IMG/VR virus record: IMGVR_UViG_3300026533_000006
Location: 1 to 45,643 of that record
DNA: 45,643 bases
Strand: one strand, 5' to 3'
Source of the DNA: a virus
Numbering within the stretch: position 1 is the stretch's first letter; every line of letters begins with the position of its first letter. Shown here piece after piece: positions 1 to 42,088 of this stretch. Under the pieces are notes generated by a model, which worked only from the letters and a program-made list of their open reading frames with translations, was not told where the DNA came from and did no database searches. Both the position numbers and the translations under genes were made by a program.

Positions 1-172
1 CTTCCGCTGTAGACTCTCTAAGAATAGGATAAATAGCAGCATAAGCATCTTTTTTTAAAGAAGTCCATTCACTACAATTAAGTTCTTTAAAATGTTCGTT
101 TAAAGATGAATATACTAAGCCTTGGTTTTTTAGAGCAGACATTTGTTGTCTTGCTCGTTTTAAATTAGTCAT
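1..172 (-). CDS. Tail-fibre-associated chaperone-like protein A, truncated by window edge
   Basis: The ATG at 172 overlaps the end of tail fibre A (fibre stop TAA at 167-165). The readable 57 residues begin MTNLKRARQQMSALKNQGLV and run open to base 1, so the 3' end is missing. They align with the start of the 244-aa protein at 44302-45036 (MSNLKRAYDQMKAKKSQSLV; both continue with a SSL.EHFK segment). The two are therefore paralogues, each directly downstream of a fibre gene. By analogy with the full-length copy, this is probably a fibre assembly or attachment helper. Its function is inferred from position and paralogy only. Confidence 0.7.
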   Translation of the reverse strand, partial: MTNLKRARQQMSALKNQGLVYSSLNEHFKELNCSEWTSLKKDAYAAIYPILRESTAE

Positions 173-3100
173 TTTTGAATACTCCTGTTCTTGTAAACCC
201 TACATAACTCTTAGCTGTGTTACCATTTAAGTCTGTAAAAGTTCCATTAGTTAAATTGTCATACTCTCCATTATCTCCATCATAAACACCTGCATTAGAT
301 ATAAGCTCTTCACCCATAACTTGTACTACATACTCATTATTTGTATCTACTGCTAGTGTAGGAAATGACTTAGCTGTTGGAGATACTTCTGTGTCTAGTG
401 TGATTGTGCTGTGTTTAGGTGTAGTGCCTATAGAGGATATCTCAATTCTATCAACTACTTTCCCTGATACATAGCTTGTACCACTTCTATAAAAATCTAT
501 TGTAGATGAATTTGTCTGAATACCTGTAATATCCACTTTTGTTCCATCAGTAAAATATGCTGTACCAATTTTATTATTATAATTATTTTGGATATAAACA
601 CCATTTCCGACTTTAACTTGAAAAACATAATACCCACCTGAGTTTACATACCCTTCTGTTTCAGTTGTAAATTCTACAATCTCACTATTCTCTAAAGTAT
701 GACTCTCTAAACCATTACTACCATTACCTACTGCAACCTTATCAGTGACAGTATTAGTTATCATAGCTCCTTTATAGATACTATGACTATTAGATGCTAC
801 TGTTTTTGGTAGTACCATTTCTATAGGAAGTGGAGTTGATTTAGATAGTGGTTTGTTTTGAGATTCTGCTTGATAAATCATTACCCTAGATACTGGAGTG
901 TCTTCAGTATACCTATAATTATATACTTCTCCATTATTGGTTGGTAGTACTGCTGCTGTCCAAGAATCTCCATTTGTATCAGTAAATATTCTTGGAGTAC
1001 TACCTAAGATATTTATTATTTTGTTTTTAAATGGTGTGTATGCCTTAGATGAACCTTTAGGTATTAAATCTTCACCTTCCTCTCCAACTAATAAAGGATT
1101 TATGTTAGCACTCTTACCACTTGCTAAATGGTTTAACCAATCCTGTGGATAGTTAGCAGGGTCTCCTATAATATCATTGCTTAGTGATGTTCCTTGTGTA
1201 AGTAGTGAGTTACTAGAAGTTGAAGTCATTAGATAAGGCTCTTGTATATTACTTCCTGACATGTTCAGTGTTCCATTCTTATGTAATGATGAATATACAA
1301 GCCTAATTATTAGTCCACCCGCATCTAATTTAGTAGAGTCTATATACCCTGTTGCCGTTGCTCCTGATACACCACCAAAGAATGTATATCTATTACCAAC
1401 AATAAAGTCAGTATTCTTTCTGTCATCACCTTGTCCTATATAAAAAGCAAATGATGAGCCGTCATCATATCCATTTGATACACTATTATTTCTACCTAAT
1501 GACCATTGCCAAGCTTCTACTCCAACATCTTCACTCATATCTAAATCACCACTGACCATATCACTATATGTACCACTAAGTAAGTCATACTGATTAGCTT
1601 GTTCTGTGTAAGTTGGTTTAAATATTAATCCACCATCAGACTCAAAGTATGCTTTGTCATAGAATTTAGGTTCTTCTTCTGGTCTACCTGATGGATTTCC
1701 ACTAGATATAGCACCCGAATTACCATAGTATCCACCATCAGTACCATCAACTCCAGGTCTAAGGTTATCATATACAGATAAATTAACATCATGGTTATAC
1801 CATTTTTGATATGTATTATTGGAGTCTTTCCAATTTGCTCTACAACCAAAACTATTATAAAAAGGATGATAAGCACCTGCATTTAATCTATCAAATAAAC
1901 CTGATATAACAACTTCTTCTACCTCATCATGATAAAGTCCATTACCTAACTTACTATATCCATAAGCACTAGCTATAACATCATTAGAAGTATTAGGAGC
2001 AAAGTCATGTAAACCTTTAACTGTCTTATAACCTGTCTTAGTAATTAACACTAAATCTTTTCTAGTTACATTAGTTAATACTTGAAACTTACTAGATGTT
2101 ACTAGTTCACCTGCTGTTGTATCTTCTGTAGCTTGATGGATATTGTCTACTGCTGTAATGCTCATACTATAATTTACAGTCACATCATTAGCATATAGTG
2201 TTAGATTAATTGCATTACTGTTTGGTGTTATTGTAATAGTCTTACTTGTTGTGTCTCCCATTCTTGGAAATGTTTGCCTATTAGTATTATCTATATTTTG
2301 TGCAAAACAAGAGTATGCTGATGCAGATGGGGGAGCATCAATATCAGGTTTAATTGCTATTGAGTATTTTACATTAGGGGAGACAGCCAAACTTATTGAT
2401 AAATATCCATCAGCACTGCCACTCTCGTCTTCTAGTGTAGCATTACTATCTCCATTTACATATATGTAACTTAATAGTCTACCACTTGCAATTACTGTTC
2501 CACTATCTACCAACTCATTCCCACTAACAACTATATCACCCTTAGTTAATGCTACAGGTAATACAGAACCATGTACTTTATCATCCATAAGGTAGTCTGT
2601 ACTTGTAGGGCTAAATGGAGCATCAGGTAATACTACTTGTGGTAGTTGTTTAGCACTTACTGTATCAATCTCTATTACTCCACCAGTTCTTACAGATATA
2701 CTAAAACCATCGGTATTAGAAGAAATAATATTAAATTCATAGTCACCAATACTTAGTAAAGATATAGTTCCATTATATAGCTGAGTTCTTCCATATTGAA
2801 TTGTAACATTAGCAGAGGAGTCAATTTTGCTTATAACAGAAAAACTAACTTTATAAATATTTCCAATTATGCTATTATTTATCTGTTTTACTTCAGCATA
2901 ATCTCCGTGCCCATCTAGGTATTTTAGTGTTTGCTTTGATGTATCTATAAACCCAGTTGCTGATGAGTTTACTACCCATCCAGTAGTACCATTACTAAAA
3001 TCACCATTAACAACTTCTTCATCACCTAGTCTCTCAACCAACCCATCACTAAATCTTACACTATCCCCTACTTTATCAACTATAGTGTTAGGGGTATCTC

Positions 3101-3563
3101 CTTCTAACCATCTATCTGCTTTCTTTACTTTCTTAGTGTATCCATAAGCATCAAAGTTAGCATTGTTCTGTAGTACAACAGAAGCTGTATGGTTATCTTG
3201 TAATGCTAGTATATCATCATCGTTAGAAGCTATATTTATAGCATTAGTTGATATATTAGTTTTGTTAGTGTTTACTTGTGTAGTAAGATTGGTTACATCT
3301 GTTTCTATATTAGTTATGCTTTGACTGTTGCTTGTTATATTTGCAGTGTTGTCACTTATAATAATATCTTGTGCATTGTTCTCACTATCTACATATGTTT
3401 TATCTGCCTTTCCGTTTATCACTATATCCTGTGCAGTATTTTCATCATCCACATATATTTTATCTGCTTTTAAACCTATCTGTATATCTTGTAGCTCATT
3501 TTCGCTATCTACATAATCTTTATCTGCTTTGTTTGCTGAACTAAAGTCTAGTACCTGTTTCAT
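165..3563 (-). CDS. Tail fibre A (receptor-binding protein)
   Basis: 1132 aa. Residues 9-75 hold three imperfect ~21-residue repeats of the type KADKxYVDSENxxQDI, common in phage fibre shafts. They are followed by a heptad-like N/T/I/S-rich coiled-coil stretch (about 76-130) and a segment beginning VNGDFSNGTTGW, typical of carbohydrate-binding-like jelly-roll modules. The long remainder is T/S/G/N-rich and beta-like. The last ~180 residues match fibre B (45036-45643) at both ends, with an unrelated middle, so the tip is modular. The start ATG overlaps the stop of the 85-aa gene upstream, and its own stop overlaps the next gene. No endosialidase or pectate-lyase catalytic motif is recognisable. 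Fibre role is confident; receptor unknown. Confidence 0.85.
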   Translation of the reverse strand: MKQVLDFSSANKADKDYVDSENELQDIQIGLKADKIYVDDENTAQDIVINGKADKTYVDSENNAQDIIISDNTANITSNSQSITNIETDVTNLTTQVNTNKTNISTNAINIASNDDDILALQDNHTASVVLQNNANFDAYGYTKKVKKADRWLEGDTPNTIVDKVGDSVRFSDGLVERLGDEEVVNGDFSNGTTGWVVNSSATGFIDTSKQTLKYLDGHGDYAEVKQINNSIIGNIYKVSFSVISKIDSSANVTIQYGRTQLYNGTISLLSIGDYEFNIISSNTDGFSISVRTGGVIEIDTVSAKQLPQVVLPDAPFSPTSTDYLMDDKVHGSVLPVALTKGDIVVSGNELVDSGTVIASGRLLSYIYVNGDSNATLEDESGSADGYLSISLAVSPNVKYSIAIKPDIDAPPSASAYSCFAQNIDNTNRQTFPRMGDTTSKTITITPNSNAINLTLYANDVTVNYSMSITAVDNIHQATEDTTAGELVTSSKFQVLTNVTRKDLVLITKTGYKTVKGLHDFAPNTSNDVIASAYGYSKLGNGLYHDEVEEVVISGLFDRLNAGAYHPFYNSFGCRANWKDSNNTYQKWYNHDVNLSVYDNLRPGVDGTDGGYYGNSGAISSGNPSGRPEEEPKFYDKAYFESDGGLIFKPTYTEQANQYDLLSGTYSDMVSGDLDMSEDVGVEAWQWSLGRNNSVSNGYDDGSSFAFYIGQGDDRKNTDFIVGNRYTFFGGVSGATATGYIDSTKLDAGGLIIRLVYSSLHKNGTLNMSGSNIQEPYLMTSTSSNSLLTQGTSLSNDIIGDPANYPQDWLNHLASGKSANINPLLVGEEGEDLIPKGSSKAYTPFKNKIINILGSTPRIFTDTNGDSWTAAVLPTNNGEVYNYRYTEDTPVSRVMIYQAESQNKPLSKSTPLPIEMVLPKTVASNSHSIYKGAMITNTVTDKVAVGNGSNGLESHTLENSEIVEFTTETEGYVNSGGYYVFQVKVGNGVYIQNNYNNKIGTAYFTDGTKVDITGIQTNSSTIDFYRSGTSYVSGKVVDRIEISSIGTTPKHSTITLDTEVSPTAKSFPTLAVDTNNEYVVQVMGEELISNAGVYDGDNGEYDNLTNGTFTDLNGNTAKSYVGFTRTGVFKND

Positions 3564-3820
3564 TATACTATACCAAAAGCTTCAACATGTATTGCTCTGC
3601 TTCCTGTTTTTAGATATATTGTTGTTGTTGAACTTGACATTATCAATAGTCCTTTCCCACATAATATCCCTCCTACTTCACTATCCGTTATTGGTTCAAA
3701 ACTATATTTTAGTTCGTCATCTGAGCAGTTCTGTATCTGTTTACAGTTTCGTATTTCTGAATACTCATTTTCTGCCATCTGAACTGTCTCTTGTTTTTTT
3801 GTCAATGTTATTATTGCCAT
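3563..3820 (-). CDS. Small putative virion protein between giant RNAP protein and fibre
   Basis: 85 aa, starting MAIITLTKKQETVQMAENEY. It lies between the giant virion protein and tail fibre A, and its stop overlaps the fibre's ATG, so the two are probably translated together. The predicted content is mostly beta strands (SSTTTIYLKTGSRAIHVEAF), with two cysteines in NCKQIQNC and one in LCGKG. There is no membrane segment. The small beta-rich form fits a fibre-attachment, neck or decoration protein, but I do not recognise the family. Confidence 0.55.
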   Translation of the reverse strand: MAIITLTKKQETVQMAENEYSEIRNCKQIQNCSDDELKYSFEPITDSEVGGILCGKGLLIMSSSTTTIYLKTGSRAIHVEAFGIV

Positions 3821-3835
3821 TCTCTATCTCCTCTT

Positions 3836-6800
3836 TTAATTCTTCGTTAGGTCTAACAATTTTTGAGTTGCACCTCTTCTGTCTGCACCTTTACCTTTCG
3901 GTTCTTTTTTTGTATTAGTTTTCAATGCTTCACCTACTGTCTTCTTTCCTTCGTATACATCATATCCTCTCTGCATATATGCGGGTATTACCGTTGATAT
4001 TGCAGTTCTTATTAAATCCTCATCACCACTTAATATATCTGGTACTTTTGTTATATATTGCTCTAACATGTCTACAAATTGTGTTGTAGGTGATTGTGAT
4101 TGAAAGTCTTTTCCAGACTCTTTTGATAATATGTATATACCAACCATCATAGCCATTGCTTTTACTGGATTTTTCTTTGCTACTTTCAATGCCATTGGTG
4201 CTGACAACGAAGCCCATTTAACAAATGGTAATCCTAAGTAACTATCCATTCTCTCTATCCAAGGATAAACCATTCTATTCATGTCTGCAAATAACCCGTT
4301 GGCTGTGTCTACTGCTTCATTCATAGGTTTTCCATTCTTTAGTTCTTTCTTTGCTATTACATATCTACCAGTTGTATCTATTGCTGTAAATACTTTGTTT
4401 ACTGCTTTCCCTGCCAATGAACCTTGGTTTAATAAGATGTTGTTAGCTACTGTTCCCACATGTTTAGGTGTTACTGACCCTACCATATGTTGCAGTAAAG
4501 GCTTAGACGAATCAACCACTCCTTCAAGCTTGTTAGTAGATAAGCCAGATGCTTCTAGTTCTTGTAACAGCAGTGCTTCCTCAGAGAGAGTGTTCTTTGG
4601 AACTCTTTTCCCTTTTGTCTGTGCTTGGTTCACTTTAGTTTCATAAGCTCTAAGCTCCATCATTGTTGATACTGCTTCTTTTTGCCATACTGCTAAGTCT
4701 TTGGGATTAACTCCATGTACTAGTGCTGTTGTCTGGTTTACCACTGTTGCATTTACATACGATGGTACATTCTTTAGAACTACATTTTGTTTGAACATTG
4801 TTCCTAGGTTTTTAAGAAGTCTATCTGCTAGTTGTACTGCTTGATGTGATTCATCGTTTGCAAACAGTCTTACTTCTTCTCTTCCTAATATTTGTTCTTT
4901 TAAATCTTCATTAACATATTTTAATCGTTTCTTTAATATTTGTGGCAAGTGACCCATTTCTTTCTTTGATAATTTCACCATTCCCTTTTGAGGCTTTGTG
5001 CTATACAGTTCTGATTTTCCAGTTGCTAGTTCAGACAATGTTTCATTGATATTACTTCTGTTTGCTTGTTTGATAGAGTTTGTTTCAAATGTTCTTGACA
5101 GTGTTTCTGCTAAGTTTTCTGTCTTACCTGCTTTCACTCTTGTTTCTTCATCTACAATTTTAAAGTATTTGTCACCAGTCTGTTTTAGTCTGTTTCTTTG
5201 CTGATTAGTTACATCTATTGGCTTTTCAGATTTAACTTCTGTACCTAGTCTACCTTTTTCCCTCTCTCTTGGTATAACTCCATTTTCATCTTTTCCGAGA
5301 CCATCATATACAGCTTTACCTTTCTCATTTATTCTTTTACCTTTATTAAACACTTCCCCCTGATATCCTTTGATAGCTGATGTGTCTGTATCCGTTCCTA
5401 CAAAATTAGCTTTGTTCTCTTTATCTATCTGAGTTAGCATATCCATTAAATTGTCAAAGTCTTTGTCCTTAGACATCTTCTCTATTGACTTCCATGAGTT
5501 ATTTTGTTTAATTGCTTGTATTGTAATAAGTGAGTCTATTAGCTCTTCTGCTTCTGTTGGAAAACCATGAGTCTTTGCTATTTGATGTGCATTGTTTTTG
5601 AAGTAACCAAATTGCTCTGACTTAACTCCTATACCTCTAGCTGTCTGCTCAATCTCTTTACCTGCTCTTTCTAATATAACTTTTGTTTCTTGACTTTCCC
5701 ATACTCGGTTTGCCTTAGCTTCTGTATCAATCCCTTTTCTGAATATAGATTGGTAATCAGTTTGCACTATGTGTTTTGGTGCTGATGATTGAAGTTCTTT
5801 ACTCCAAGATTTAATATCTTTAGTTACATCCTCTACAAGTTTAGCTATGTTAGCTTCTCTTACTTTAGTAGTAGTAAATTTATTTCTAAAGTCTGTTGAC
5901 ATTTCATTGCCCTTGAACCACTCCTTAAATTTAGTCCACTTACCTTTCGGTGTTAATGTATCTACTTGAGTTTGTTTAACTAAATCTCTGGCTTGTGTCT
6001 CTGCAACATTAAGTCTCTTCATTTTGGCAGGTTTCCAACTATATACAATTTCTTTTACCTCTTTGTATGTAGGTGCTACCTCTTTCTTAACTAGTGAGTA
6101 TTCAGTTGTTTCCATTCTCTTCTCACCTAACTTTCTCTCTTGTCTGATTAATTGTTTCTCTGTAGGAGAGAAATTCCCAACTGGTGTTCCATCTTCATTA
6201 GTGTAAAGTCTGTTACCCTTTATCTCACCATCTTTTCCAAGTAGTGTGTTAAATTCTAACTTTCTTCTAGCTTCTTCAAATAATTCCATCTGAGTATCTT
6301 TCCATACTTTTTCGTTAACTCCTTTCGGTGTTTCCCCAATCATCTTCTCAGTAAATCTTGGACCTTTCTTTGCAAAGTAAATTGCTCTCTCGAATGGAGA
6401 GTTAAGGTCTAGGTCTAATGAAGAGTGCATTTGCTCATTTACTATTTCATCCAATGTTGAACCTGCATTTGTATCTCTATGGTCTAATGATGTCATATAG
6501 TCTCTCATAAGTTCACTTTTGTTTTTGACTCTGCTATCATCATGTACAGTCTTCTTTATTAAGTTAGGCTTACCCTCTGGATTTAGAGGACCTTCTATGT
6601 GTTCAAGCTCCATTGAGTTCTTTGCATTTTTAACTTGTTCTGGCTTCAAAGTCTTCTTCTGTAAAGATTGTCCTTTGTATCCTAAGTCTTTCATTATTGA
6701 ATGTAATAAATCTTTTTCTAGTATCTCTGATAATATTTGGTTATAAATCTTTTGTACCTCACTAGATACACCCTTTTGAACTGTCATTGCATCGTGAATA

Positions 6801-9800
6801 GTCTGGATTGGTTTTCCTAATCTCTTCGCTATCTCTCCAACAATGTATCCATCAATTGAGTGCACTATGTTTGGCATAAGTCCTCTTGAACCCATATCAG
6901 CTTTACTTTCGTCTGTAATAAGAGCATCTGTCTTTTTATCTAACTTTCCCTCTATCTTTGCATTTTCTGTATACTTAACTACTCGTCCATTTGGTAGTGT
7001 CCAAGTAAAGTTTCCTTTTGTGCCTTTTTGTAAAGAGTAGATAGCATCCATAGCTTCTATTACTAACTTAGCTTTATTTCCTAGTGCATTTGTAAATGCT
7101 TCTACGACTACTTCTGATTCTTGTATAGATAACTTATTTGTCTTTGCAAATTCTTTTACTGCTGACTTGGTACCTTGTCCATAAGATTTAAGCATGACAA
7201 GTGGTTTAACATGAGCTTTCTCTATACTACCACCTAACTTATCTTTTATAGACTTTGGTAAATCCATCTTGTTCATTTCATTTGCTATTACAACTCTAAG
7301 GTCTGCACTTGCATCATCAATAGTTTTAGTTATACCTGCTAGTTTTGCATCACCAGTTAGCATAGTGAAGATTTGATATGCTTGTGAACTTGCATCTATT
7401 GTTTCATCTTTGAAATGTATTCTCTTAGTTTCATCAACCTTTGCTAAATTCTCTATACCTATATCTTCTCTCATAATCTTGTTCGCTTCTGCTTTACCTT
7501 CTGCTCTTATTGCTTCATCCGATGAACTTAGTTTTCCAACTGTTTCTGGTGAAACTCCTGCATCTAACAAGTCCATTTCATCTTCTCTAAGAGTGTTCTT
7601 TCCAGTAGTCTTATTTCTAAATGTCTTCTTTGAACCAACTTCATAGTTCTTTGCTATAGACTCTTTAGTTATTCTAGTGTTGTCCACTTTTTCATTAGAC
7701 TCTTTCTCCTTAGTACTAACACCTTTCTTTACATCTTTAGGAGTAAACTCTCTCTCCTTCTTTGTAATTCCAATAGCTTCATACTTAGCAACTTTCTCTT
7801 GTTCTGCAATCTTTACTTCTTCTGGTGAGTTGAACTCTGTCTTCTGCTCTTGTGCATCTAATCTTTGTTCTTCTCTGTATCTAAGTTCATGTATATCAAT
7901 GTCTCCATTTTTATATGCCTTTACATCTGCTCTTCTTTCCAATGCTGTCTTTACTAACTTAACATCATCTGGTTTAGGTTTAGCACCTGCTCTCTTAGAT
8001 TCTTGTATTCCTTTGTTAGCTCTAGCTACTGCTGACTTCTCTGCTAATCCGTTATTGATTATATTTGACTCAATCTCTAATTCGTTTACCTCTTTATCAG
8101 TATGTCTAAAACCTTCACCTCTCGACTCATTACCTTTTAAGAATGTCTTATACTGTTCCGATATATCTTTCTCTCGTTTAGTAGTTTCTCTCTTGTTTTC
8201 TTTAGGTTTGTTTGCTTCTTCAATCTTTGCTTTAGCTTTTGCTATGTTACCTTTTGGTGCTAGTTGTTCAGTTACTTTTTTACCTTTTAATTCAGCTAGT
8301 TTCTGGTGTGCTACCTTTTTAACTTCTTTTGGCAAGTTCTTATCGAAAGCTATTGACTTATACTGTTCTCTCTCAAATGCTATTCTATCTGCTTTAGCTT
8401 CTGCACTGTTTGGTGTATAGTCTCCTTTATATCTAGCTTGATTCTGCCCATAAGTTCTTCTTATTTCTTGGCTATCGTCATAGATTTTAAGTCTTCTTTC
8501 TACTTCTATTTGTGCATCTTTTGCAATAGTCTGTTCAAGTTTCAGTGTAGCTTTCTGAGTATCCCCACCTTGTGCTGATAGAAGTGAACTTTCTTCTGAG
8601 TACTTTCTTCCCCTGAAATCTTCATTCCAATTCTTTACTAGTAGTCTTTTGACTTTAGTTTGGTCTGCTTTCTTTAAAGGATGATGTACTGATAACTCTT
8701 GACTTGACAATATGTCTAGTCCTTCCGTATCCTGTATCTTGTTTCCTTTCTTGTCAAATCTTTGTTTGCTTCCCGTACTTATCTCTCTAGTTTCTACTTT
8801 AGGTTTACCTTTTACAGTAGTCTCAACTAGTTCTAAATCTGACTTCGGAGGGTTTGCTTTAAAGTCATTATGCTTCGCTGTTTGCCCATCTTTAACTTCT
8901 TTAAGCAAACTGTACACTATCTCTTGTTCTTTAGGAGTAGCTTCTTTGAACTCTGTAGTCTCTACTACTTTCTCTGGAGTTCCTACTTTCATAAACTTAG
9001 ACATAATTGCACCCATAGCTGAACCTAGCCCACCTGCCATCACTACTGTTTCTGGGGTTGCTTCTAGTCCAATCTTATTAGACTTTGAGAACATCTTTAT
9101 AGCTTCTGGAGCCATTGCTGATAGTCCTTGTGTGATTGCATCATAAGCTATCTTACCTTTGACAGTTGGATTGATTAATAAATCTGGTACTATTTCACCT
9201 AATGCTTGTGAAGCTCCATCTTTGTTTTTTACAGCTTCATAATTTATATTAGCTCTTTCTTCCCAAAATTTAGCTTCATCTTCAAATGAATTATTTGTTG
9301 CCTTATTTAGTAATCCAGTAATTCCACCTAACACTTTGTCTACTGCTATTGAAGCTCCTAAACCAAAGTCTTTTATACCATCACCCGTAGGTACAGTTGT
9401 TACTTCTTCAAGTAATTGAGAACCTGCTTTCTTATATGTATCTAAGTCTAACAGTGAAGGCTCACTCTTTTGATTAGCTTTCGATATTGCTATATTCTTC
9501 TTTGTTCTAGCTGATATGCTATCTTGCAATTCTTGTAGAGGTGCTGATACATTTGTTCTTTCTATTATTCTATCAGTTTCTCTCTTTGCTACATTCATAG
9601 ACTTTTGTGTATAGATTTCTGTACCACCTGCATTTAATGATGCATCTTTTGCATGACCATAATCATATGCTCTATTGTCTAATGAATTTCTGTTTCCATG
9701 AATTAGTCTTTCTGCTTTGGCTACATCCTTCATTCTTCTTGCTGATTTTACAGTCCAATTTTGTTGGAATTGCATATCATTCTGGTATCTTTCCCATACA

Positions 9801-10150
9801 CTTCCACCTGCTCTACCATATTTAGTTTCACCAGTATTAGGGTTGTAAAGTTCGTATAATGTTCCGTCTGCTTCATCTTCATTGTCTGCTACAAGACTGT
9901 CCACTTCTCGTGTCAGTTCTTCTGATGATAGGTTATTGAAACTTTTATTGTTAGTCTTTAAAGTTTTACCCTTATAATCTGTCACTGTTTCTGGTTGATA
10001 CCAAGGTGATTTCTGAGTTGTTCCTCCAAATATTCCTTGTGTTGTATCTCTGAATGGTTGTGCTATCTTGTCATTATACCCTTTCTCTAGTCGTTCTGTG
10101 AAAGTTTGTTCAGTGTCTATTCCTAGTAAACCTAGTAGTCCTCCTGCCAT
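3836..10150 (-). CDS. Giant virion protein with embedded T7-family RNA polymerase (N4 vRNAP-like)
   Basis: 2104 aa. RNA polymerase signatures occur in order. DxxGR is at 511-515 (DFRGR), followed by SAQGGDTQK, equivalent to T7 NPQGNDMTK. Motif A has Asp919 in ETIDASSQAYQIF. Motif B has Lys982 eight residues before Tyr990 (KPLVMLKSYGQG), the T7 K631/Y639 spacing. TWTLPNGRVVKY lies at 1049-1060. Motif C region is RGLMPNIVHSIDG with His1119-Asp1120 in TIHDA. About 400 residues separate DxxGR from motif A (112 in T7), much of it Lys/Glu-rich insertion. Residues ~94-182 resemble a GIY-YIG/T5orf172 domain. Residues ~1780-2060 look like podovirus ejection-protein sequence (NGLFADMNRM, PWIERMDSYLGLPFVKW), with hydrophobic helices near 253-285, 360-385 and 1985-2008. 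N4 vRNAP (gp50, ~3500 aa) is the known parallel: packaged, ejected, transcribes early genes. Position after capsid and lysozyme genes supports a virion protein. Packaging and activity are inferred. Confidence 0.88.
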   Translation of the reverse strand: MAGGLLGLLGIDTEQTFTERLEKGYNDKIAQPFRDTTQGIFGGTTQKSPWYQPETVTDYKGKTLKTNNKSFNNLSSEELTREVDSLVADNEDEADGTLYELYNPNTGETKYGRAGGSVWERYQNDMQFQQNWTVKSARRMKDVAKAERLIHGNRNSLDNRAYDYGHAKDASLNAGGTEIYTQKSMNVAKRETDRIIERTNVSAPLQELQDSISARTKKNIAISKANQKSEPSLLDLDTYKKAGSQLLEEVTTVPTGDGIKDFGLGASIAVDKVLGGITGLLNKATNNSFEDEAKFWEERANINYEAVKNKDGASQALGEIVPDLLINPTVKGKIAYDAITQGLSAMAPEAIKMFSKSNKIGLEATPETVVMAGGLGSAMGAIMSKFMKVGTPEKVVETTEFKEATPKEQEIVYSLLKEVKDGQTAKHNDFKANPPKSDLELVETTVKGKPKVETREISTGSKQRFDKKGNKIQDTEGLDILSSQELSVHHPLKKADQTKVKRLLVKNWNEDFRGRKYSEESSLLSAQGGDTQKATLKLEQTIAKDAQIEVERRLKIYDDSQEIRRTYGQNQARYKGDYTPNSAEAKADRIAFEREQYKSIAFDKNLPKEVKKVAHQKLAELKGKKVTEQLAPKGNIAKAKAKIEEANKPKENKRETTKREKDISEQYKTFLKGNESRGEGFRHTDKEVNELEIESNIINNGLAEKSAVARANKGIQESKRAGAKPKPDDVKLVKTALERRADVKAYKNGDIDIHELRYREEQRLDAQEQKTEFNSPEEVKIAEQEKVAKYEAIGITKKEREFTPKDVKKGVSTKEKESNEKVDNTRITKESIAKNYEVGSKKTFRNKTTGKNTLREDEMDLLDAGVSPETVGKLSSSDEAIRAEGKAEANKIMREDIGIENLAKVDETKRIHFKDETIDASSQAYQIFTMLTGDAKLAGITKTIDDASADLRVVIANEMNKMDLPKSIKDKLGGSIEKAHVKPLVMLKSYGQGTKSAVKEFAKTNKLSIQESEVVVEAFTNALGNKAKLVIEAMDAIYSLQKGTKGNFTWTLPNGRVVKYTENAKIEGKLDKKTDALITDESKADMGSRGLMPNIVHSIDGYIVGEIAKRLGKPIQTIHDAMTVQKGVSSEVQKIYNQILSEILEKDLLHSIMKDLGYKGQSLQKKTLKPEQVKNAKNSMELEHIEGPLNPEGKPNLIKKTVHDDSRVKNKSELMRDYMTSLDHRDTNAGSTLDEIVNEQMHSSLDLDLNSPFERAIYFAKKGPRFTEKMIGETPKGVNEKVWKDTQMELFEEARRKLEFNTLLGKDGEIKGNRLYTNEDGTPVGNFSPTEKQLIRQERKLGEKRMETTEYSLVKKEVAPTYKEVKEIVYSWKPAKMKRLNVAETQARDLVKQTQVDTLTPKGKWTKFKEWFKGNEMSTDFRNKFTTTKVREANIAKLVEDVTKDIKSWSKELQSSAPKHIVQTDYQSIFRKGIDTEAKANRVWESQETKVILERAGKEIEQTARGIGVKSEQFGYFKNNAHQIAKTHGFPTEAEELIDSLITIQAIKQNNSWKSIEKMSKDKDFDNLMDMLTQIDKENKANFVGTDTDTSAIKGYQGEVFNKGKRINEKGKAVYDGLGKDENGVIPREREKGRLGTEVKSEKPIDVTNQQRNRLKQTGDKYFKIVDEETRVKAGKTENLAETLSRTFETNSIKQANRSNINETLSELATGKSELYSTKPQKGMVKLSKKEMGHLPQILKKRLKYVNEDLKEQILGREEVRLFANDESHQAVQLADRLLKNLGTMFKQNVVLKNVPSYVNATVVNQTTALVHGVNPKDLAVWQKEAVSTMMELRAYETKVNQAQTKGKRVPKNTLSEEALLLQELEASGLSTNKLEGVVDSSKPLLQHMVGSVTPKHVGTVANNILLNQGSLAGKAVNKVFTAIDTTGRYVIAKKELKNGKPMNEAVDTANGLFADMNRMVYPWIERMDSYLGLPFVKWASLSAPMALKVAKKNPVKAMAMMVGIYILSKESGKDFQSQSPTTQFVDMLEQYITKVPDILSGDEDLIRTAISTVIPAYMQRGYDVYEGKKTVGEALKTNTKKEPKGKGADRRGATQKLLDLTKN

Positions 10151-10165
10151 AGTCTTTCTCCTTTT

Positions 10166-10660
10166 TTATTTTAGTTTTTGTATTGCTTTAATAAAGTCAT
10201 TTGCTCTCTTTGGAGTTTGTTTCATCCACAAAGATGATTTTACTTCCTCAATTGCTGTATCATAATCTTCTTCTAATAATGCATCCCAAGTCTTGTTATG
10301 GTCTTTATTCCATGATGTCCCTAATTGGAAATTTACACTTTCTAGTACTCTTTCAAATTGTGTATTGTCTAATCTTAACTCTTGTATCTGTGATTTAGCT
10401 GATTGCTTTGATTTTTGTGTATCTTGCTTCTTCCAGTTGTCTGTTACTTCTTTGGGAATATTAGTTCCTTTTGGATATCGTAGCTTCTCTGCATCTGTCA
10501 GTTTATGTCCAGTACCACCAGTTAAATTACCTTCTGTGTCTACATAAGATGTTGGTTTGAATCCTTCTCTTCTCTCTATTAAAGTTTTAGTTCCTCCTGA
10601 TTCAGAAGGTTCATTAGGGTGCATTGAGAGCATTAACACCACTACTAATTCCGATATCAA
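10166..10660 (-). CDS. T4-type lysozyme (GH24) / virion-associated muramidase or endolysin
   Basis: 164 aa from a TTG start, chosen because AGGAGA lies 6 nt upstream; ATGs at 10633 and 10624 have weaker sites. The catalytic triad of T4 lysozyme is conserved with exact spacing: Glu32 (ERREGF), Asp41 (YVDTEGN) and Thr47 (LTGGTGH), matching T4 E11-D20-T26. The C-terminus has the usual W..TPKRANDFI signature. It hydrolyses peptidoglycan between MurNAc and GlcNAc. Residues 4-11 are hydrophobic (ELVVVLML), too short for a clear signal. It sits between internal virion proteins and the giant RNAP protein, away from the holin-like genes at 43.5-44.1 kb. It may therefore be packaged and act during entry rather than lysis, or serve both. 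Confidence 0.85.
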   Translation of the reverse strand: MISELVVVLMLSMHPNEPSESGGTKTLIERREGFKPTSYVDTEGNLTGGTGHKLTDAEKLRYPKGTNIPKEVTDNWKKQDTQKSKQSAKSQIQELRLDNTQFERVLESVNFQLGTSWNKDHNKTWDALLEEDYDTAIEEVKSSLWMKQTPKRANDFIKAIQKLK

Positions 10661-11450
10661 ATTTGTCTCCTATTAATGTCTCTGTATTTCTTATCTGAGA
10701 GTCCATTTTTCTTATTTTATCCACTTCCATTAGTTGTTGCAATTTTCTTATTGATACTTGCTTTCCGTCTAATGTCATAGTACCTGCACCATTTCCTACT
10801 TCTTTCCCTTCTTTATCCATAGAAGGTTTGAATTGTATATTGTGTGAACCATCATTAAAGTAATCTAATACTCCTTGACCTTGTATTCCTGCTCTCTTAT
10901 AGAACTTTTGAGCAGGTCCAGTATATCCACCAAACTTTGCACTCTTGGTTTGTTTACCAGTTCCTGAATAGTTACCTTCTATAACTCCAGATGTTCCATC
11001 ACTGTACACCGCTGTTAGCTTACCATCTTTATCTACAAATGTTTTGTGTATGTTTTTGGTCTTATCTCCTAATCCATTTATTAAACTAGCTGAACCACCT
11101 CTAGCAATAATCTCTGTTTTGATTGCTTGTCGTTGTTTCTTATCTGTGGCTCCATTAAATTGAGCCATCAACTCTGATATGCCTTCATTCTTTGCATTTT
11201 TAACTTCGACACCTCTTTCAAAAGTATTGAGTTCGTCTACTAGTCTGTTGTCTCTCTTTACTTTATCTCTTTCAAGTATTCTTGTTTGAGCTTCGTCTGC
11301 TCTTAGCCTGTCCTGAAATGGTGTTATTGCATCAGACAATCCGCTTATTCCATTATTCAACGAAGATGATGCACCTTGTAACAAACTTGCTATATTTGCT
11401 TGTGGTAATCTGCTTACTGCTGATTGTGGATTAAATGCTCCTAATCCCAT
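10614..11450 (-). CDS. Internal virion protein, putative
   Basis: 278 aa from ATG at 11450, preceded by AAGGGAG at good spacing. A longer reading to 11666 is open but overlaps the upstream gene and lacks this site. The sequence starts MGLGAFNPQSAVSRLPQANI. A helical charged region (about 45-115) is followed by a glycine-rich middle (GKQTKSAKFGGYTGPAQKF) and a helical end. No enzymatic motif is visible. Its place between a small glycine-rich membrane-active-looking protein and the lysozyme/giant protein block matches the internal core (ejection) proteins of T7/N4-like phages. Family not recognised. Confidence 0.65.
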   Translation of the reverse strand: MGLGAFNPQSAVSRLPQANIASLLQGASSSLNNGISGLSDAITPFQDRLRADEAQTRILERDKVKRDNRLVDELNTFERGVEVKNAKNEGISELMAQFNGATDKKQRQAIKTEIIARGGSASLINGLGDKTKNIHKTFVDKDGKLTAVYSDGTSGVIEGNYSGTGKQTKSAKFGGYTGPAQKFYKRAGIQGQGVLDYFNDGSHNIQFKPSMDKEGKEVGNGAGTMTLDGKQVSIRKLQQLMEVDKIRKMDSQIRNTETLIGDKFDIGISSGVNALNAP

Positions 11451-11532
11451 ATATTCTCCCTTGGTGCCTTTTATAAGGGTGATACTCCTGCACCTCTCTT
11501 GATAATATCCTCCTAAGAGGACACTACAAAAG

Positions 11533-11805
11533 CTAAAATCTAAGATTTCTTCTTCTTTCTGCTGATGCTTGGTCTTGTGCAAAAGCTTGTTCTTGCATGT
11601 TAATCTGTCTATTTGCAAATTCATTTTGTTTCTTAGCCTGTTCATTTTGTAGGTATAACCCACCAATTCCAGTTGCTAATTTTCCATAGTCTGCAAAGTT
11701 TGTTCCTACTTCTTTCCCTATTGTTCCAAGTCCAGAACCAATAGCTCCTAAGCCATCCACTACTCCTGTTCCAATAGTACCAAGTAATGATTCTTCTACT
11801 GCCAT
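11533..11805 (-). CDS. Small glycine-rich internal virion protein
   Basis: 90 aa. The N-terminal 45 residues are glycine-rich and apolar with GxxxG-like spacing (LLGTIGTGVVDGLGAIGSGL), a pattern seen in small podovirus core proteins that insert in or cross membranes. The rest is a Gln/Asn/Glu-rich amphipathic helix (NEQAKKQNEFANRQINMQEQ) ending in RRR. The 82-nt gap to the next gene contains a small hairpin (TCCTC-TTAG-GAGGA on the minus strand, about 11509-11522). Probably an ejection-complex component; inference from composition and position. Confidence 0.6.
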   Translation of the reverse strand: MAVEESLLGTIGTGVVDGLGAIGSGLGTIGKEVGTNFADYGKLATGIGGLYLQNEQAKKQNEFANRQINMQEQAFAQDQASAERRRNLRF

Positions 11806-12343: not shown

Positions 12344-13357
12344 TTAAGTGAAGTCGTAGTGGTGCTTAACATCTGCATCTTCAACTGATGCTGTTGCTTC
12401 TGTACGAATTAACCATTTTTGATTAACAATCGCACAACCAGAAATTGCTTTCCAACCAACTGTACCAAATTGGTTTAATGGGTCGTTAGCTCCTGCTGAA
12501 CCAACATCATGTACGATAGTTTGAATTGTTTTATTACCACGAAGTGATACTGTTACATATGAGTCCATTGCCATCCATAGTCCAACATAAATGTTTGTTC
12601 CTGCTTCGTCAATTGGGTCATTGTTAGTAGACTCAATTACACGGAAATCTCCAATACGACCTACTTCATCTTCTAATGCTTTAGAAACATCTGGATAATC
12701 TTCCATATCTTGCCAACCTGCTAACTCACGAAGGTCCTCCACTTGTGATGGGTGAACAATTGCAATGTAAGCTGAACGAACTGGTGCTGTACCAATTTTA
12801 GTAGAACCAGAGATTACTTTCTTGAACTTCTTTCCTGCTTGGTTTTTAAGCTTAACTGCCATTAGTGAAATGTCTGCTTTAGTAATCTTCTTAGCTCCAG
12901 ATGCTACTGTTGCTCTATCTGTTGCTCCATCTGCAAATACTACATTAGTACCTGAGCGAAGAACATCTCTACGAATAGTATCTAGTGTTAGTGAAGCTTG
13001 GTCACCTAGTACATCTAAAAAGTCTGTCTTAATTGTACGGAGGTCGTACTTCATAAGTTCGTCTGTAAGTGTAATGTAGTCACCATAGTGTTGAACACCA
13101 AACTCTACTTCTTCACGAATAATCTTATTTCCTGTTTTGATGTTTGAACCATTGTACTCTGCAATAGGTGTAGTTGCAGGTAGAATATTTTTATATCTAT
13201 AAGCAAATGATTTTTTAGTATTTGAGTTTGCAGGAATAGTTTTAGCCATACCAAATCTATCAAATACTTGTGTATCTGTTGCTCTCATTAATAATGCTCT
13301 ATCGAATGTTGCTAAAATCTTTGCTGATAGGAAATTTCCTGTACCTTGTACTGCCAT
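12344..13357 (-). CDS. Major capsid protein, N4-gp56 family
   Basis: 337 aa. The pattern fits the HK97-fold N4_gp56 capsid family: an N-terminal helix with FDRALLMRATDTQVFDRFG, a segment EEVEFGVQHYGDYITLTDEL where the family has a conserved quality/tyrosine-glycine-aspartate stretch, a long central helix, YIAIVHPSQVEDLREL, and a terminal beta domain (GTVGWKAISGCAIVNQKWLI). It assembles the icosahedral shell. It lies after scaffold and portal genes with a 114-nt gap upstream, one of the few real intergenic gaps in the late block, suggesting its own promoter or RNA processing site. Assigned from remembered family pattern, not a search. Confidence 0.85.
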   Translation of the reverse strand: MAVQGTGNFLSAKILATFDRALLMRATDTQVFDRFGMAKTIPANSNTKKSFAYRYKNILPATTPIAEYNGSNIKTGNKIIREEVEFGVQHYGDYITLTDELMKYDLRTIKTDFLDVLGDQASLTLDTIRRDVLRSGTNVVFADGATDRATVASGAKKITKADISLMAVKLKNQAGKKFKKVISGSTKIGTAPVRSAYIAIVHPSQVEDLRELAGWQDMEDYPDVSKALEDEVGRIGDFRVIESTNNDPIDEAGTNIYVGLWMAMDSYVTVSLRGNKTIQTIVHDVGSAGANDPLNQFGTVGWKAISGCAIVNQKWLIRTEATASVEDADVKHHYDFT

Positions 13358-13471: not shown

Positions 13472-14500
13472 CTAATCAAACATTGCTTCAAAATCTGAGT
13501 CTGACATTTGCCATACATCATCTGAATCTACTTCTGCTCTCTTACCATTCTTTGAATTTGAATTGCTTCTCTTTCTTAGCTCGTCTATATCTTTATTTGC
13601 TTTTCTCTGTCTTTGAGTAGTCTTTTTTGGCTCTTTGTCTACTTGCTTGGAGGCTTCGCTGTTTGCCTTACTTCTCCCTACATCAATATAGTGGTCCATA
13701 AACTTCCCACCTTTCATCATCATCTGCTTCATAGCTTCTGGTATGATTTCTTGTGCTAGTCCAGACTCTAGGTGTCCTTTAAAGTGTCTAAGGTCCTCAG
13801 CATTAGCTGTGATAGCTTGTACGAAGTCTTTCGGTACTACTGCTACTGCATTGGTGAATTTCTCATGCAATCCTTTATCTGCCATAATCTCATTTGCTAC
13901 TATGTCTGCTTCTGTTGGCATGTTGTAATTCTGTGATTGTTTATAAGCTTCTGCTTTTGCATCATAAAGAATATCTTTGTCTACATTTGCTCTTCTAGCT
14001 ATTTCTGCAATAGCTTCTGGAGAGCCATTTTGAGCCTCTACAAAGAGTTTTAAATCATCACTTGATAGTTTGCCTTGCTCCATAATAACTTCGGCTTCTG
14101 ATGGCATCTTTGTTGATTTCTTTCGTTGAGCTAACTGCTTTAATTCGTCTATAGAATTTGCTGTTACCTTTGTTCCATCAATAGTTATTTCTATCGGTTG
14201 GAATCCACTCTCATCGCTTTCTTTGCCATCAACATGTTCGTCCTCATGTCCGTCTCCACTGTCCCCATTGTCGTCTTTGGTTTCAATATCTCCTTTTTCA
14301 AGTTCCGTATCTGAATCTTCATCATCCGATTTTCCTTCTTCAGCTTTATTGTCTTCTTCTTCATTATTGAGATTATCATCTTCGTTATCGACTTCTTCAT
14401 CACCTTGTGACTCCTCCTCTTCTTCGCCTTGTATATCCTCCAATGAACCATCACCTAGCTCATCGAACATGTCCTCTAATTCTTCCCATTCGTCTTTCAT
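13472..14500 (-). CDS. Scaffolding / head assembly protein
   Basis: 342 aa. The N-terminal ~110 residues are extremely acidic (runs such as EGEEEEESQGDEEVDNEDD), followed by a helical middle (SIDELKQLAQRKKS, KLFVEAQNGSPEAIAEIARR) and a basic C-terminal segment (KKTTQRQRKANKDIDELRKR) before an acidic end. Acidic-helical-basic architecture between portal and major capsid genes is characteristic of podovirus scaffolding proteins, which drive procapsid assembly and then leave. The stop abuts the intergenic gap before the capsid gene; the start is one base from the portal stop. Confidence 0.75.
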   Translation of the reverse strand: MKDEWEELEDMFDELGDGSLEDIQGEEEEESQGDEEVDNEDDNLNNEEEDNKAEEGKSDDEDSDTELEKGDIETKDDNGDSGDGHEDEHVDGKESDESGFQPIEITIDGTKVTANSIDELKQLAQRKKSTKMPSEAEVIMEQGKLSSDDLKLFVEAQNGSPEAIAEIARRANVDKDILYDAKAEAYKQSQNYNMPTEADIVANEIMADKGLHEKFTNAVAVVPKDFVQAITANAEDLRHFKGHLESGLAQEIIPEAMKQMMMKGGKFMDHYIDVGRSKANSEASKQVDKEPKKTTQRQRKANKDIDELRKRSNSNSKNGKRAEVDSDDVWQMSDSDFEAMFD

Positions 14501-25381: not shown

Positions 25382-25813
25382 CTATTCGTACCTACCTTTG
25401 TTATATTTTAGTATTTCATCATCAGACATCATTTGTCCAGTCATGTCGTACACCTCAGTTCTCATTTGTTTAGTTACTTTTTTCACTGTATCTACTAATA
25501 GATATTTATGGTCTTCTGGTATCTGCTCATATACTGCACAAGCTAGTTCTCTAATTTCCCATAAAGCACTCTTATCTGTCCGTAGAGACATAAAGTTTCT
25601 TAGTGACCTAAGATTAACTGTCCAGACTAAAGATGTCTTGTAAGCTTCTACTAGGTTGTATTTGCTTATATCATTAGCTGTACCTCTTATCACATTCTGT
25701 CTTAACATTTCTAGTATTACTACTGATTGATAGTCTGTAAAATCATCTCCAGTTAACACTATATACTTACTTGCTCTTTCTTTTTGTTTGTCTGTTAAAG
25801 TCTGTGTTTCCAT
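25382..25813 (-). CDS. thyX: ThyX, C-terminal half (split flavin-dependent thymidylate synthase)
   Basis: 143 aa. The body matches the C-terminal half of ThyX: ASKYIVLTG near residue 14, NLVEAYKTSLVWTVNLRSLR (53-72) and NFMSLRTDKSALWEIRELAC (73-92), which carry the conserved N-x-R, the LR and the WEIR substrate-binding positions. It lacks the RHRx7S motif, which lies in the separate gene at 26185-26469. It has its own ATG (25813) with a strong AAAAGGGGA site inside the end of the HNH gene, so it is made as a distinct polypeptide. The first ~12 residues (METQTLTDKQKE) are probably derived from the junction. Confidence 0.85.
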   Translation of the reverse strand: METQTLTDKQKERASKYIVLTGDDFTDYQSVVILEMLRQNVIRGTANDISKYNLVEAYKTSLVWTVNLRSLRNFMSLRTDKSALWEIRELACAVYEQIPEDHKYLLVDTVKKVTKQMRTEVYDMTGQMMSDDEILKYNKGRYE

Positions 25814-26192
25814 TTATAAATCCCCTTTTACTCATGTCCATTGTGTAATGGTCCTTTCTTTGTGTTTCAACTGCATGACAATTTGCACATAATACTCTGC
25901 ATTTTTTTATTTCTTTTTCTATATCTTCTTTTTTTCTTTTCATATCCAACGATATATTAAATTCTTTTTCACTTGGAACTTTGTGGTCGAAATGTAATGC
26001 TACTGGATGTTTATTATATCTACAAATTTCACATCCTTTTTGTATTTTATACTCACTTATCCAAGTCCTATTTTTTCTTCTTGTGTTTTTGTCTAGGCAT
26101 TTTTTAGTACAAAATGTATGAACTGAGTTTCCTTTTTTAAACTCTATATTACATTCAGGACAAATCCCTATACCATGATTTCTACTAGACAA
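25767..26192 (-). CDS. HNH endonuclease inserted in thyX
   Basis: 141 aa from a TTG start at 26192, overlapping the end of the thyX N-terminal half by 8 nt. An N-terminal zinc-finger-like CPECNIEF ... FCTKKC is followed by CEICRYNKHPVALHFDHKVP and KKCRVLCANCHAVET, giving the paired CxxC and His-Asn-His arrangement of HNH homing endonucleases (HFDH and CANCH). No ribozyme-sized intron sequence surrounds it: the gene itself fills the whole interruption. It resembles free-standing homing endonucleases that split a phage gene, for example mobE within nrdA of phage Aeh1. Likely a selfish element; cleavage site presumably in uninterrupted thyX. Confidence 0.88.
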   Translation of the reverse strand: MSSRNHGIGICPECNIEFKKGNSVHTFCTKKCLDKNTRRKNRTWISEYKIQKGCEICRYNKHPVALHFDHKVPSEKEFNISLDMKRKKEDIEKEIKKCRVLCANCHAVETQRKDHYTMDMSKRGFINGNTDFNRQTKRKSK

Positions 26193-39300: not shown

Positions 39301-40347
39301 TTAAGAGATATGGTAAATTGAAGCTTGTATGTCTGCTTCCGTTAGTGTGTTAGACTTAGTGAATGGGATAAATCGTTCAGCTATGTCTGTTAACAAGTCT
39401 TGTAGTAAGTTTGACTCATTTATTTCAATAAGTGTCTGTGTATATACTTCTCTAAGCTTCTCGATTTCATTTGGATGTACACTATAAGAGTCATGTATTG
39501 TTGTGATGAATGAATTTCCCATCTTTCGTACAACTTCTCTTAGGAAGTAAGCATCAACTGAGTGTATCAAGTTGGGAGCCATACCTTTATTGTGTGCTGA
39601 TGGAGCATAAGTCTCACTAGTTAGAGTAACTGAGAATGTTTTACCACTCTTGCTAGTCTTTTGTAAGTTCATATCCATGTTAGTCTTAACATCATACTTA
39701 ACTTTAGCACCATCAGGCATTGTCCAAGTGTATGTACCTATGTCTTTGTTGTTTAGTGACTGTATAATGTCCATTACATTCATACAATATGGCACTAACT
39801 TCATCATTACTTGTCCAAATGCCTCTTCTATCTCTAGTGAAGAGTTAACTTTAGCTAGGAACTCTGCTTCTGACATCTTAATGTTTTCCAATAGTTCGTT
39901 ATGTCCATTGCTTGAACCATATAGAGTAACCATTAGTGGCTTCTTACAGATGCTTCTATCGAATATATCAGTCTTGTATAGCTCATTTAACTCTTTAGCT
40001 AGTTCACCATACAAGTCAATTCTTGTTTCACCAGTAGATATACCACCCATTGATGCTGTCTTCTTGTCACTTGTTAGTACACCATACATTTGAATTGCTT
40101 GATTAGATGCATCCATTGGCATAATGTAGTGTACTTCTTCATCTCTTTGGTAACATCTAAGTGCTTCAACTGCATTACTATAACCAAATTTATTATCTGC
40201 TCTGTGTATCTCTTCTTCAAGTGTATCAATATGGTCATTCACCCACTGTGCTTGACAATTATATGTCTCTTTGTCTAACCCATACTCACTTGCTATGTTT
40301 ACTTTTAGCCAATATAGACCTGCTGTTGTTAATTTTAATGATTTCAT
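39301..40347 (-). CDS. RNA polymerase II-like C-terminal subunit (T7 family; motifs A, B, C)
   Basis: 348 aa. GLYWLKVNIAS at 10-20 matches T7 'GYYWLKIHGAN'. Motif A: IMPMDASNQAIQMYGVLTSD, Asp79. Motif B: SICKKPLMVTLYGSSNG with Lys135 eight residues before Tyr143. TYTWTMPDGAKVKY at 205-218. Motif C: KGMAPNLIHSVDAY and TIHDSYSV, His285-Asp286. With the upstream 312-aa subunit the total is 660 aa. N4 RNAPII is likewise a two-protein T7-like enzyme. AAAGGA lies 5 nt before the ATG, inside the end of the upstream gene, so it is separately initiated. Confidence 0.92.
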   Translation of the reverse strand: MKSLKLTTAGLYWLKVNIASEYGLDKETYNCQAQWVNDHIDTLEEEIHRADNKFGYSNAVEALRCYQRDEEVHYIMPMDASNQAIQMYGVLTSDKKTASMGGISTGETRIDLYGELAKELNELYKTDIFDRSICKKPLMVTLYGSSNGHNELLENIKMSEAEFLAKVNSSLEIEEAFGQVMMKLVPYCMNVMDIIQSLNNKDIGTYTWTMPDGAKVKYDVKTNMDMNLQKTSKSGKTFSVTLTSETYAPSAHNKGMAPNLIHSVDAYFLREVVRKMGNSFITTIHDSYSVHPNEIEKLREVYTQTLIEINESNLLQDLLTDIAERFIPFTKSNTLTEADIQASIYHIS

Positions 40348-41286
40348 TTAGTTTCCTTTGTTGTAATGTACACCTTCGATGAACACTGGTTTAATCATTG
40401 ACTTCTGGTATGAAGCACCTTGTATATTTATATCATATCCTACTGAATATGCTCTTAGTCTAAAGTCATACTTCCATGCAAATGAGAACTGTTGTCCTTC
40501 CATCGCTAGGTATGACTCTTGCATTGTAGTGAATAACACTTGTGCTGACTTTAAGTGAGCTGATTCTTCTGACTTCCAGTTCTTTGATGCTATTCTATTG
40601 AGTGCATAGTTAAACTGCTCTTGTAGATTGTAGCTTCTAAGTGTAAACTTCTGGTCTTGTAACTTGTTTAATATGTCAAGTACATTCTGTGGTTGGTCTT
40701 TCTCACCCTTATTAAGTGTTACCTTACCAGTATCAAGATGATATCCACCTTCATTTGAGCCTCTTACCCAAGGTATTGGTCTTTCAATTAGCGGTAGTTT
40801 GAACCTTTTGTAACCTGATAGCTTCTCTGCATCACTTGATACTTCAAAGTCAACCACAACTGTTGTAGCTGTATACCAATTACCTTCTTCTGACATCTTG
40901 TGCTCTTGGTTTATGTCCCAAAATACTGTGTCTAACTCTGCAACTATGTCCATTGCTATAACATAAGTCTGATTCTTGTCAACATTTGGTATCATTCTAG
41001 CTATTGACAGCACCATTTGCTCTGCACTGAACTCTCTGATGTGAGGATAGTCTTCACTTATTGCTAATCCATTGCTTCTTGTACCTATCATAGTTATTAG
41101 TTCAACCATGAATACATCAACATCATCAGTAGACATTGATGGTACTATGTTGCCTACTGTATCATAAATTGATTGAGGTAGTTTCTGAATGAACTCGTTA
41201 ACTGCTAATGCTAACTCTTGGTTGTAATTCTCGTCTGAGAACATTTCTTCTATCTCTGATTGTGTCTTGTTGTTGATGTCTAACAT
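40348..41286 (-). CDS. RNA polymerase II-like N-terminal subunit (T7 family)
   Basis: 312 aa. The middle has PIPWVRGSNEGGYHLDTGKV (171-190), matching T7 'PKPWTGITGGGYWANG', and residues ~240-300 match the T7 region around DxxGR: FAWKYDFRLRAYS with Asp274 and Arg278 but Leu277 in place of Gly, then INIQGASYQKSM, like 'FNPQGNDMTKG'. The stop TAA is immediately followed, in the same frame, by the ATG of the C-terminal subunit. Role: promoter recognition and upstream half of the core, as in N4 RNAPII small subunit. Start two bases from the stop of the 71-aa gene. Confidence 0.88.
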   Translation of the reverse strand: MLDINNKTQSEIEEMFSDENYNQELALAVNEFIQKLPQSIYDTVGNIVPSMSTDDVDVFMVELITMIGTRSNGLAISEDYPHIREFSAEQMVLSIARMIPNVDKNQTYVIAMDIVAELDTVFWDINQEHKMSEEGNWYTATTVVVDFEVSSDAEKLSGYKRFKLPLIERPIPWVRGSNEGGYHLDTGKVTLNKGEKDQPQNVLDILNKLQDQKFTLRSYNLQEQFNYALNRIASKNWKSEESAHLKSAQVLFTTMQESYLAMEGQQFSFAWKYDFRLRAYSVGYDINIQGASYQKSMIKPVFIEGVHYNKGN

Positions 41287-41936: not shown

Positions 41937-41940
41937 CGTT

Positions 41941-42018: not shown

Positions 42019-42088
42019 TGTAGCATACCCATGCTATATATATTAGTAGACCTATTATAGCAGTTGCTGATGCATTTGCTAAGAACAT
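42005..42088 (-). CDS. Tiny membrane peptide (27 aa)
   Basis: MFLANASATAIIGLLIYIAW then VCYNVLG. One hydrophobic helix. Its start overlaps the stop of the 26-aa gene, and its end overlaps the start of the 25-aa gene. Middle member of the chain. Confidence 0.45.
   Translation of the reverse strand: MFLANASATAIIGLLIYIAWVCYNVLG

Follow-up and report, generated by a model that had tools for sequence, protein, structure and literature searches.

The IMG/VR virus record IMGVR_UViG_3300026533_000006 (45,643 bases, all of it analysed here and referred to as the window) contains a single open reading frame (ORF) of 2104 amino acids (aa) at 3836..10150 on the minus strand. As judged from sequence comparisons, this ORF likely encodes a chimeric RNA polymerase (RNAP) that is packaged and ejected by the phage, in which a catalytic core of the RNAPII type is carried on an ejection chassis of the gp50 type. 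Injected RNA polymerases have been described as a hallmark of N4-like phages, where they have been tied to one type of enzyme of about 3500 aa. A preliminary description of the window had placed a T7-family RNAP at 6656-8650, which corresponds to residues 501-1165 of the 2104-aa protein, and had named the virion RNAP (vRNAP) of phage N4 as its closest known design. The T7-family assignment was borne out. The likeness to the N4 enzyme applies to the C-terminal chassis but not to the catalytic module, which is gp15/gp16-like, that is, of the RNAPII rather than the N4 vRNAP type.

All the landmarks named for a T7-family enzyme were recovered, far beyond chance: DFRGR (residues 511-515), motif A Asp919 (7394..7396), motif B Lys982 and Tyr990 (7181..7207), and motif C His1119-Asp1120 (6791..6796), all on the minus strand like the other parts of the protein given below, as well as the blocks TWTLPNGRVVKY and LMPNIVHSIDG. 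Lys982 and Tyr990 are eight residues apart, the same distance as between K631 and Y639 of T7 RNAP. The Asp of DFRGR is unconserved (relatives read VNGR or EARGR); R515 is kept in the members examined, while G514 is Ala in the homologue L082. The palm/fingers catalytic core with motifs A, B and C (residues ~906-1175, 6626..7435) contains a match to PHROG 2051 (RNA polymerase; residues 918-1111, E = 5e-22) and, in a single-sequence phmmer search, the protein matched N4 RNAPII (PDB 6dt7_B, E = 1e-3). The reported resemblance to the phage's own RNAPII was likewise confirmed, with residues 902-1159 aligning at 32% identity (E = 7e-26). Pfam gave no RNAP match on the 2104-aa protein, whereas PHROGs, profile-profile methods and the phage's own RNAPII do detect the core. 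When residues 479-1181 were modelled from seven homologues, the predicted structure matched T7 RNAP (E = 4e-8) and N4 RNAPII (E = 2e-7) in the PDB. The protein hence displays the motif A Asp, motif B Lys/Tyr, motif C Asp and predicted palm/fingers fold of the T7 family.

Homologues of the same design are encoded by 10 further phages, nine of which have a single frame, whereas L058 has two overlapping ORFs. An IMG/VR scan with this one protein as query returned no match, and a scan with RNAPII returned one weak contig; it was the portal, together with alignments, that found the homologues. The resulting 11-protein set comprises the window protein and those of G002, G004 and G005, which are 44-47 kb records also carrying RNAPII, of the IMG/VR contigs L034, L036, L039, L058, L062 and L064, and of L082, a 43.6-kb contig of a Helicobacteraceae metagenome-assembled genome (MAG). 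At least five genomes carry both the virion RNAP gene and a separate RNAPII. In L058, the ORFs at 3462-8351 (1629 aa) and 8324-11128 (about 930 aa) meet at a break between the core and the C-terminal part, which could be either a natural split or a frameshift. This break is the sort of observation that would favour an assembly artefact joining two unrelated genes in the window, an explanation whose probability we consider negligible and already refuted by the homologues, given the same single-frame fusion in nine independent contigs from IMG/VR and the Helicobacteraceae MAG.

The polymerase core is likely to be enzymatically active, because D919, K982, Y990, H1119 and D1120 are identical in 11/11 divergent proteins of ~45-kb environmental phages, whose overall identity is about 30%. 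Alternatively, the module could have lost its catalytic function and persist as a structural component of the ejection protein, which would be in line with the low overall identity, the long insert in the palm and the missing N-terminal/thumb homology described below. It is nevertheless very improbable in view of the invariance of these five residues, as only ~5% of the region's columns are invariant among seven members.

Profile-profile comparison (hhalign), run segment by segment along the protein, assigned the core to RNAPII. It matched the RNAPII large subunit (gp16 family) with a probability of 99.9% (E = 7e-34) and the N4-type vRNAP cores with a probability of at most 15%. The preceding DxxGR palm segment (hereafter the GR segment; residues ~500-545, 8516..8653) matched gp15-type small subunits over their final ~45 residues (94.9%, E = 5e-8). 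A hidden Markov model of the core scored 84-141 bits against RNAPIIs of the same lineage, 63-82 bits against most classical RNAPIIs, 19 bits against T7 and 9 bits or less against N4-type vRNAPs. As a control, limited to two sequences, the vRNAPs of the Alteromonas phages vB_AmeP_PT11-V19 (V19) and R22Y were assigned to the N4 type rather than to RNAPII, with a match that spans core and C-terminus (99.3%, 1e-20).

The motifs, whose motif A signatures were compared by eye, agree with this assignment. Nine N4-type vRNAPs compared have DGxTNG in motif A, while most members here read DASSQ or DxSNS, which is similar to the DxSNQ found in the local RNAPIIs; since V19 and R22Y read DATASG, the signature does not decide the matter by itself. 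The spacing of motifs A-B/B-C is 63/137 residues here, 56/150 in the RNAPII of the window and 111/281 in N4 vRNAP, and so resembles that of RNAPII rather than N4 vRNAP. The HExxH zincin-like peptidase that follows the core in 10/10 N4-type proteins, V19 included, was found after the core in 0/11 homologues. The most divergent member, L064 (3812-11110), has a peptidase-like HExxH motif (HELNH) upstream of its core, whereas N4-type proteins have it downstream. The 2104-aa protein therefore shares core homology with gp16 and has no detectable gp50-type core or peptidase after it, while differing from RNAPII proper, a separate two-subunit enzyme, in being a single frame.

The part of the protein downstream of the core is gp50-like. 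Its C-terminal domain (residues ~1700-2060, 3971..5053) is homologous to the C-terminus of N4-type vRNAPs (hhalign 99.3%, E = 2e-20), and its HMM matches the vRNAPs of phages pYD6-A (1e-12), LIT1 (3e-12) and A5 (2e-9). A middle domain (residues approximately 1385-1605, 5336..5998) is also common to the C-terminal region of N4-type vRNAPs (95.7-96.4%, E = 1e-8 to 1e-9) and is collinear with gp50. According to one survey, the C-terminal region of N4 vRNAP is required for encapsidation, and residues ~1700-2060 fall inside the region reported there as needed (PMC5512222). The 2104-aa protein thus possesses the C-terminal ejection/encapsidation domain of the gp50 family and is probably present in the virion. 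Its C-terminus also matches Helicobacter pullorum prophage proteins; because of this match and of the Helicobacteraceae MAG contig, the hosts are probably Campylobacterota.

In a tree with T7-like outgroups, the 11 cores formed one clade (100/100) and were placed on the RNAPII side, with 100/100 support against T7-like enzymes after long-branch removal. N4-type vRNAPs were excluded from the tree because their core alignment was distrusted, the motif spacing being widely different. Support for a sister relationship between these cores and the same phages' RNAPIIs was 87-93%, and alternative placements were unrejected (approximately unbiased test, p = 0.21-0.22). A captured copy of the phage's own RNAPII, arising by duplication within the lineage, is accordingly the favoured but not proven origin of the core, since the test leaves other positions near RNAPII.

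The same margin in the tree could be accommodated if the protein were a shortened, fast-evolving N4 vRNAP, orthologous to gp50 throughout, whose likeness to RNAPII is retained ancestry from which the N4 enzymes diverged. The gp50-like and collinear middle and C-terminal domains are compatible with this explanation, and there is a weak relationship between RNAPII cores and N4 vRNAP cores in general (82%, 1e-5). We regard it as unlikely, as the equally short V19 and R22Y match N4-type cores but the core profile obtained here does not, DGxTNG, HExxH and the gp50 spacing are all lacking, and the core lies on the RNAPII side of the tree, albeit one built without N4-type vRNAPs. If the core was instead acquired from RNAPII, these phages might hold a second origin of virion polymerases in the N4-like lineage, a scenario that we put forward tentatively. 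Under it, a gp50-type ejection protein captured the phage's own RNAPII core, which replaced its polymerase and works without the classical N-terminal promoter-recognition/thumb region; these functions would have to come from the insert, from flanking domains or from a partner.

The stretch from DFRGR to motif A had been taken as part of the RNAP, and this did not hold. Most of it is an insert of ~370 residues (Lys/Glu-rich, residues ~546-905, 7436..8515) that lies at the split point of the RNAPII subunits, is present in all homologues and has no match to gp15, gp16 or gp50 profiles, and the usual N-terminal/thumb region is undetectable. In N4 RNAPII, the palm and fingers belong to gp16, while gp15 provides the DxxGR part together with the N-terminal and thumb parts (PMC4496689). 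Of the gp15-like portion, only the GR segment is seen in the 2104-aa protein; upstream of it, hhalign found no match to gp15-type subunits, although a diverged N-terminal/thumb domain is possible. In place of the RNAP N-terminal domain there is a Gly/Ala-rich, weakly hydrophobic, ejection-like segment (residues ~255-390, 8981..9388) that matches neither gp15 nor gp50. Its hydropathy peaks, near residues 263 and 369, recur at comparable positions in most homologues, though not in every one.

Nearer the N-terminus, residues ~50-182 (9605..10003) have a conserved pattern reminiscent of T5orf172/GIY-YIG nucleases in 7/11 proteins, with Y99, K110, G112, R121, E147, H151, T177 and E178 invariant in these seven members. 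The region is missing from L035, L037 and L039, and the L082 homologue matches the phrog_681 endonuclease (E = 5e-5). It was modelled as beta-beta-alpha-beta-alpha, and T5orf172 and GIY-YIG proteins are among the viral proteins that it matches by fold, with no match reaching an E-value below 0.01; Pfam and PDB fold searches were negative and no search gave a firm E-value. A tentative T5orf172/GIY-YIG-like nuclease domain is therefore suggestive only.

Some points speak against a packaged polymerase of this chimeric make-up. The confidence of the structural model is modest (predicted local distance difference test 62, predicted template modelling score 0.40) and drops furthest in the GR segment and the insert. 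Lacking a recognisable N-terminal/thumb region, the core might have low promoter specificity or work in a different way, and residues 1-500 might conceal a highly diverged gp50 N-terminal domain. Finally, a search for N4-like hairpin promoters in the window gave no convincing candidate.

The genomic setting of the ORF is that of the late genes in which N4 gp50 and its ejection genes reside. All convincing genes of the window lie on the minus strand, and the order of transcription runs from the terminase (23234-24751) through the portal (14501-16462, phrog_1216), a gp57-like protein of phrog_2120, a family named tail length tape measure by PHROGs (13472-14500), and the major head protein (12344-13357, phrog_1357) to a short cassette and then the 2104-aa ORF. 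The cassette contains a probable small ejection protein of 90 aa (11533..11805), proposed from position and composition only, and a probable ejection gene of about 279 aa from its likely ATG (10614..11453). The latter has no PHROG match and is proposed from its position and size; in relatives, a gene of similar size stands ahead of the vRNAP gene. The last gene of the cassette, directly upstream of the 2104-aa ORF, is internal-virion-lysozyme-like (10166..10660; phrog_2083, E = 1e-13; Pfam Phage_lysozyme, 6e-7). With a gp50-type C-terminus, the head gene block and the lysozyme upstream, the earlier claim of a fusion to ejection-like sequence in a compact (~45 kb) phage was upheld. The same phage also encodes a separate, split RNAPII at 39301-41286, which consists of a gp16-like large subunit of 348 aa (39301..40347; Pfam RNA_pol, 4e-26; phrog_2051, 1e-62) and a gp15-like small subunit of 312 aa (40348..41286; phrog_2166, N4-like RNA polymerase, 4e-23), both on the minus strand.

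Elsewhere in the window, thyX is seemingly split (25382-26469, minus strand), with an N-terminal half at 26185-26469, an HNH-endonuclease-like ORF at 25767-26192 and a C-terminal half at 25382-25813; no Rfam intron match was obtained in this region at the gathering threshold. A DNA polymerase exonuclease subunit is found at 27801-28820 (phrog_403, 4e-98), and no DNA polymerase subunit was noticed among the ORFs of the window, for which no systematic test was made. The contig end (45036-45641) is a high-identity repeat of the C-terminal part (184-560) of a tail-fibre-like ORF at 165-3563, which could reflect either a duplicated fibre tip or an effect of assembly or permutation.

The most likely role of the chimeric polymerase is early transcription by an injected enzyme. 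By analogy, it would work like N4 vRNAP while departing from that family in core type and peptidase. The protein would be loaded into the phage head, cross the tail as flexibly linked domains, accompanied by the lysozyme encoded upstream and the small ejection proteins, and remain at the inner membrane. There it would transcribe the first-entering genes, including the split RNAPII, which would then produce middle transcripts, and it may also help to draw the DNA in. Start sites could possibly be chosen by a partner protein, or initiation could be non-specific on single-stranded or entering DNA. A packaged polymerase serving mainly a mechanical purpose (DNA pulling) or replication priming, and not early expression, seems improbable to us. 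It would fit the proposal of vRNAP as a genome-ejection motor in phage DEV (PMC10925440) and the lack of a recognised early promoter element in the window and of a recognisable promoter-recognition domain. Pulling itself requires transcription, however, and a separate split RNAPII has been kept, which fits the N4 cascade, where RNAPII is a product of transcription by the injected enzyme.

As for promoters, the intergenic DNA contains a few 6-7 bp hairpins with no shared motif, for which no shuffle control was run, and sigma-70-like sites in the 36-45.6 kb region occur no more often than by chance. Upstream of the RNAPII genes lies a 1.6-kb stretch without a convincing gene and with simple-sequence stretches (41937-43549), which is a candidate early control region. 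The 11-mer AAACAGCGAAG has six exact copies, all on the coding (minus) strand (8873, 13654, 24397, 32186, 37063 and 44185); two intergenic copies have 19 nt in common (TGACCAACAAACAGCGAAG). Allowing one mismatch, there are 8 matches against 0.74 expected (0/100 shuffles). It was rejected as a promoter element, since its over-representation is real yet it also occurs within genes and has no exact copy in relatives.

Several known systems resemble the 2104-aa protein in part. Enterobacteria phage N4 gp50 (the Schitoviridae vRNAP, phrog_2206) likewise has a late-gene place near the portal and major head protein genes, a T7-fold RNAP within a giant protein and a homologous C-terminal domain, but is 3500 aa long, with a DGxTNG core of wider motif spacing and a HExxH peptidase after the core. 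N4 RNAPII gp15/gp16 (PDB 6dt7; phrog_2166/phrog_2051) is alike in core, GR segment and motif spacing; it is, however, made up of two subunits, has an N-terminal/thumb region and serves as a non-packaged middle enzyme, whereas the 2104-aa protein is one chain with an insert and ejection domains. The vRNAPs of V19 and R22Y are of similar length (2082-2083 aa) and have a homologous C-terminus (94%, 1e-7), and V19 gives the best portal match among isolates (31%). They differ in their N4-type core and HEIVH peptidase (1e-20 to N4-type) and in their genomes of 68-71 kb. The protein is indeed much shorter than N4 vRNAP, as first described, but small size alone is not new, because a virion RNAP of ~2080 aa has already been reported in R22Y (PMC11705849). 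The vRNAP of phage DEV acts as an ejection protein together with two further ejection proteins, whose genes adjoin its own (PMC10925440). In Thermus phage P23-45, a virion RNAP is reported to be likewise fused to a structural/ejected protein, in this case a cellular-type RNAP on a tape measure protein, with a core unrelated to that of the 2104-aa protein (PMC10770324). Polyvalent proteins are multidomain ejected proteins that include N4-type RNAP, which the possible nuclease domain here parallels; the accessible part of that survey contains no description of a fusion with an RNAPII-type core (Iyer et al., 2017; PMC5512222).

A tblastn search of 50,697 phage records with three members gave no RNAP-ejection fusion among the matches listed, in which the polymerase matches were annotated as, or lay within, stand-alone RNAP genes. 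A T7-type RNA polymerase of 1021 aa was seen at 345-3410 of L083 (Nitrosomonas sp. Nm51, NZ_FOGH01000073.1), where the downstream genes look related to CRISPR type III on visual inspection; one of them, at 7469-9124, encodes a Cas10-like GGDD protein. Literature searches on combinations of Campylobacterota and Schitoviridae gave no description of the 2104-aa protein among the listed titles and abstracts.

A clade of ~45-kb phages with a different polymerase core would mean that the delivery chassis and the enzyme of N4-like phages are separable modules. These phages may offer a much smaller system for the minimal needs of an ejected polymerase, namely tail passage, promoter choice and DNA uptake, and a natural source of short delivery domains for comparison with N4 and DEV.

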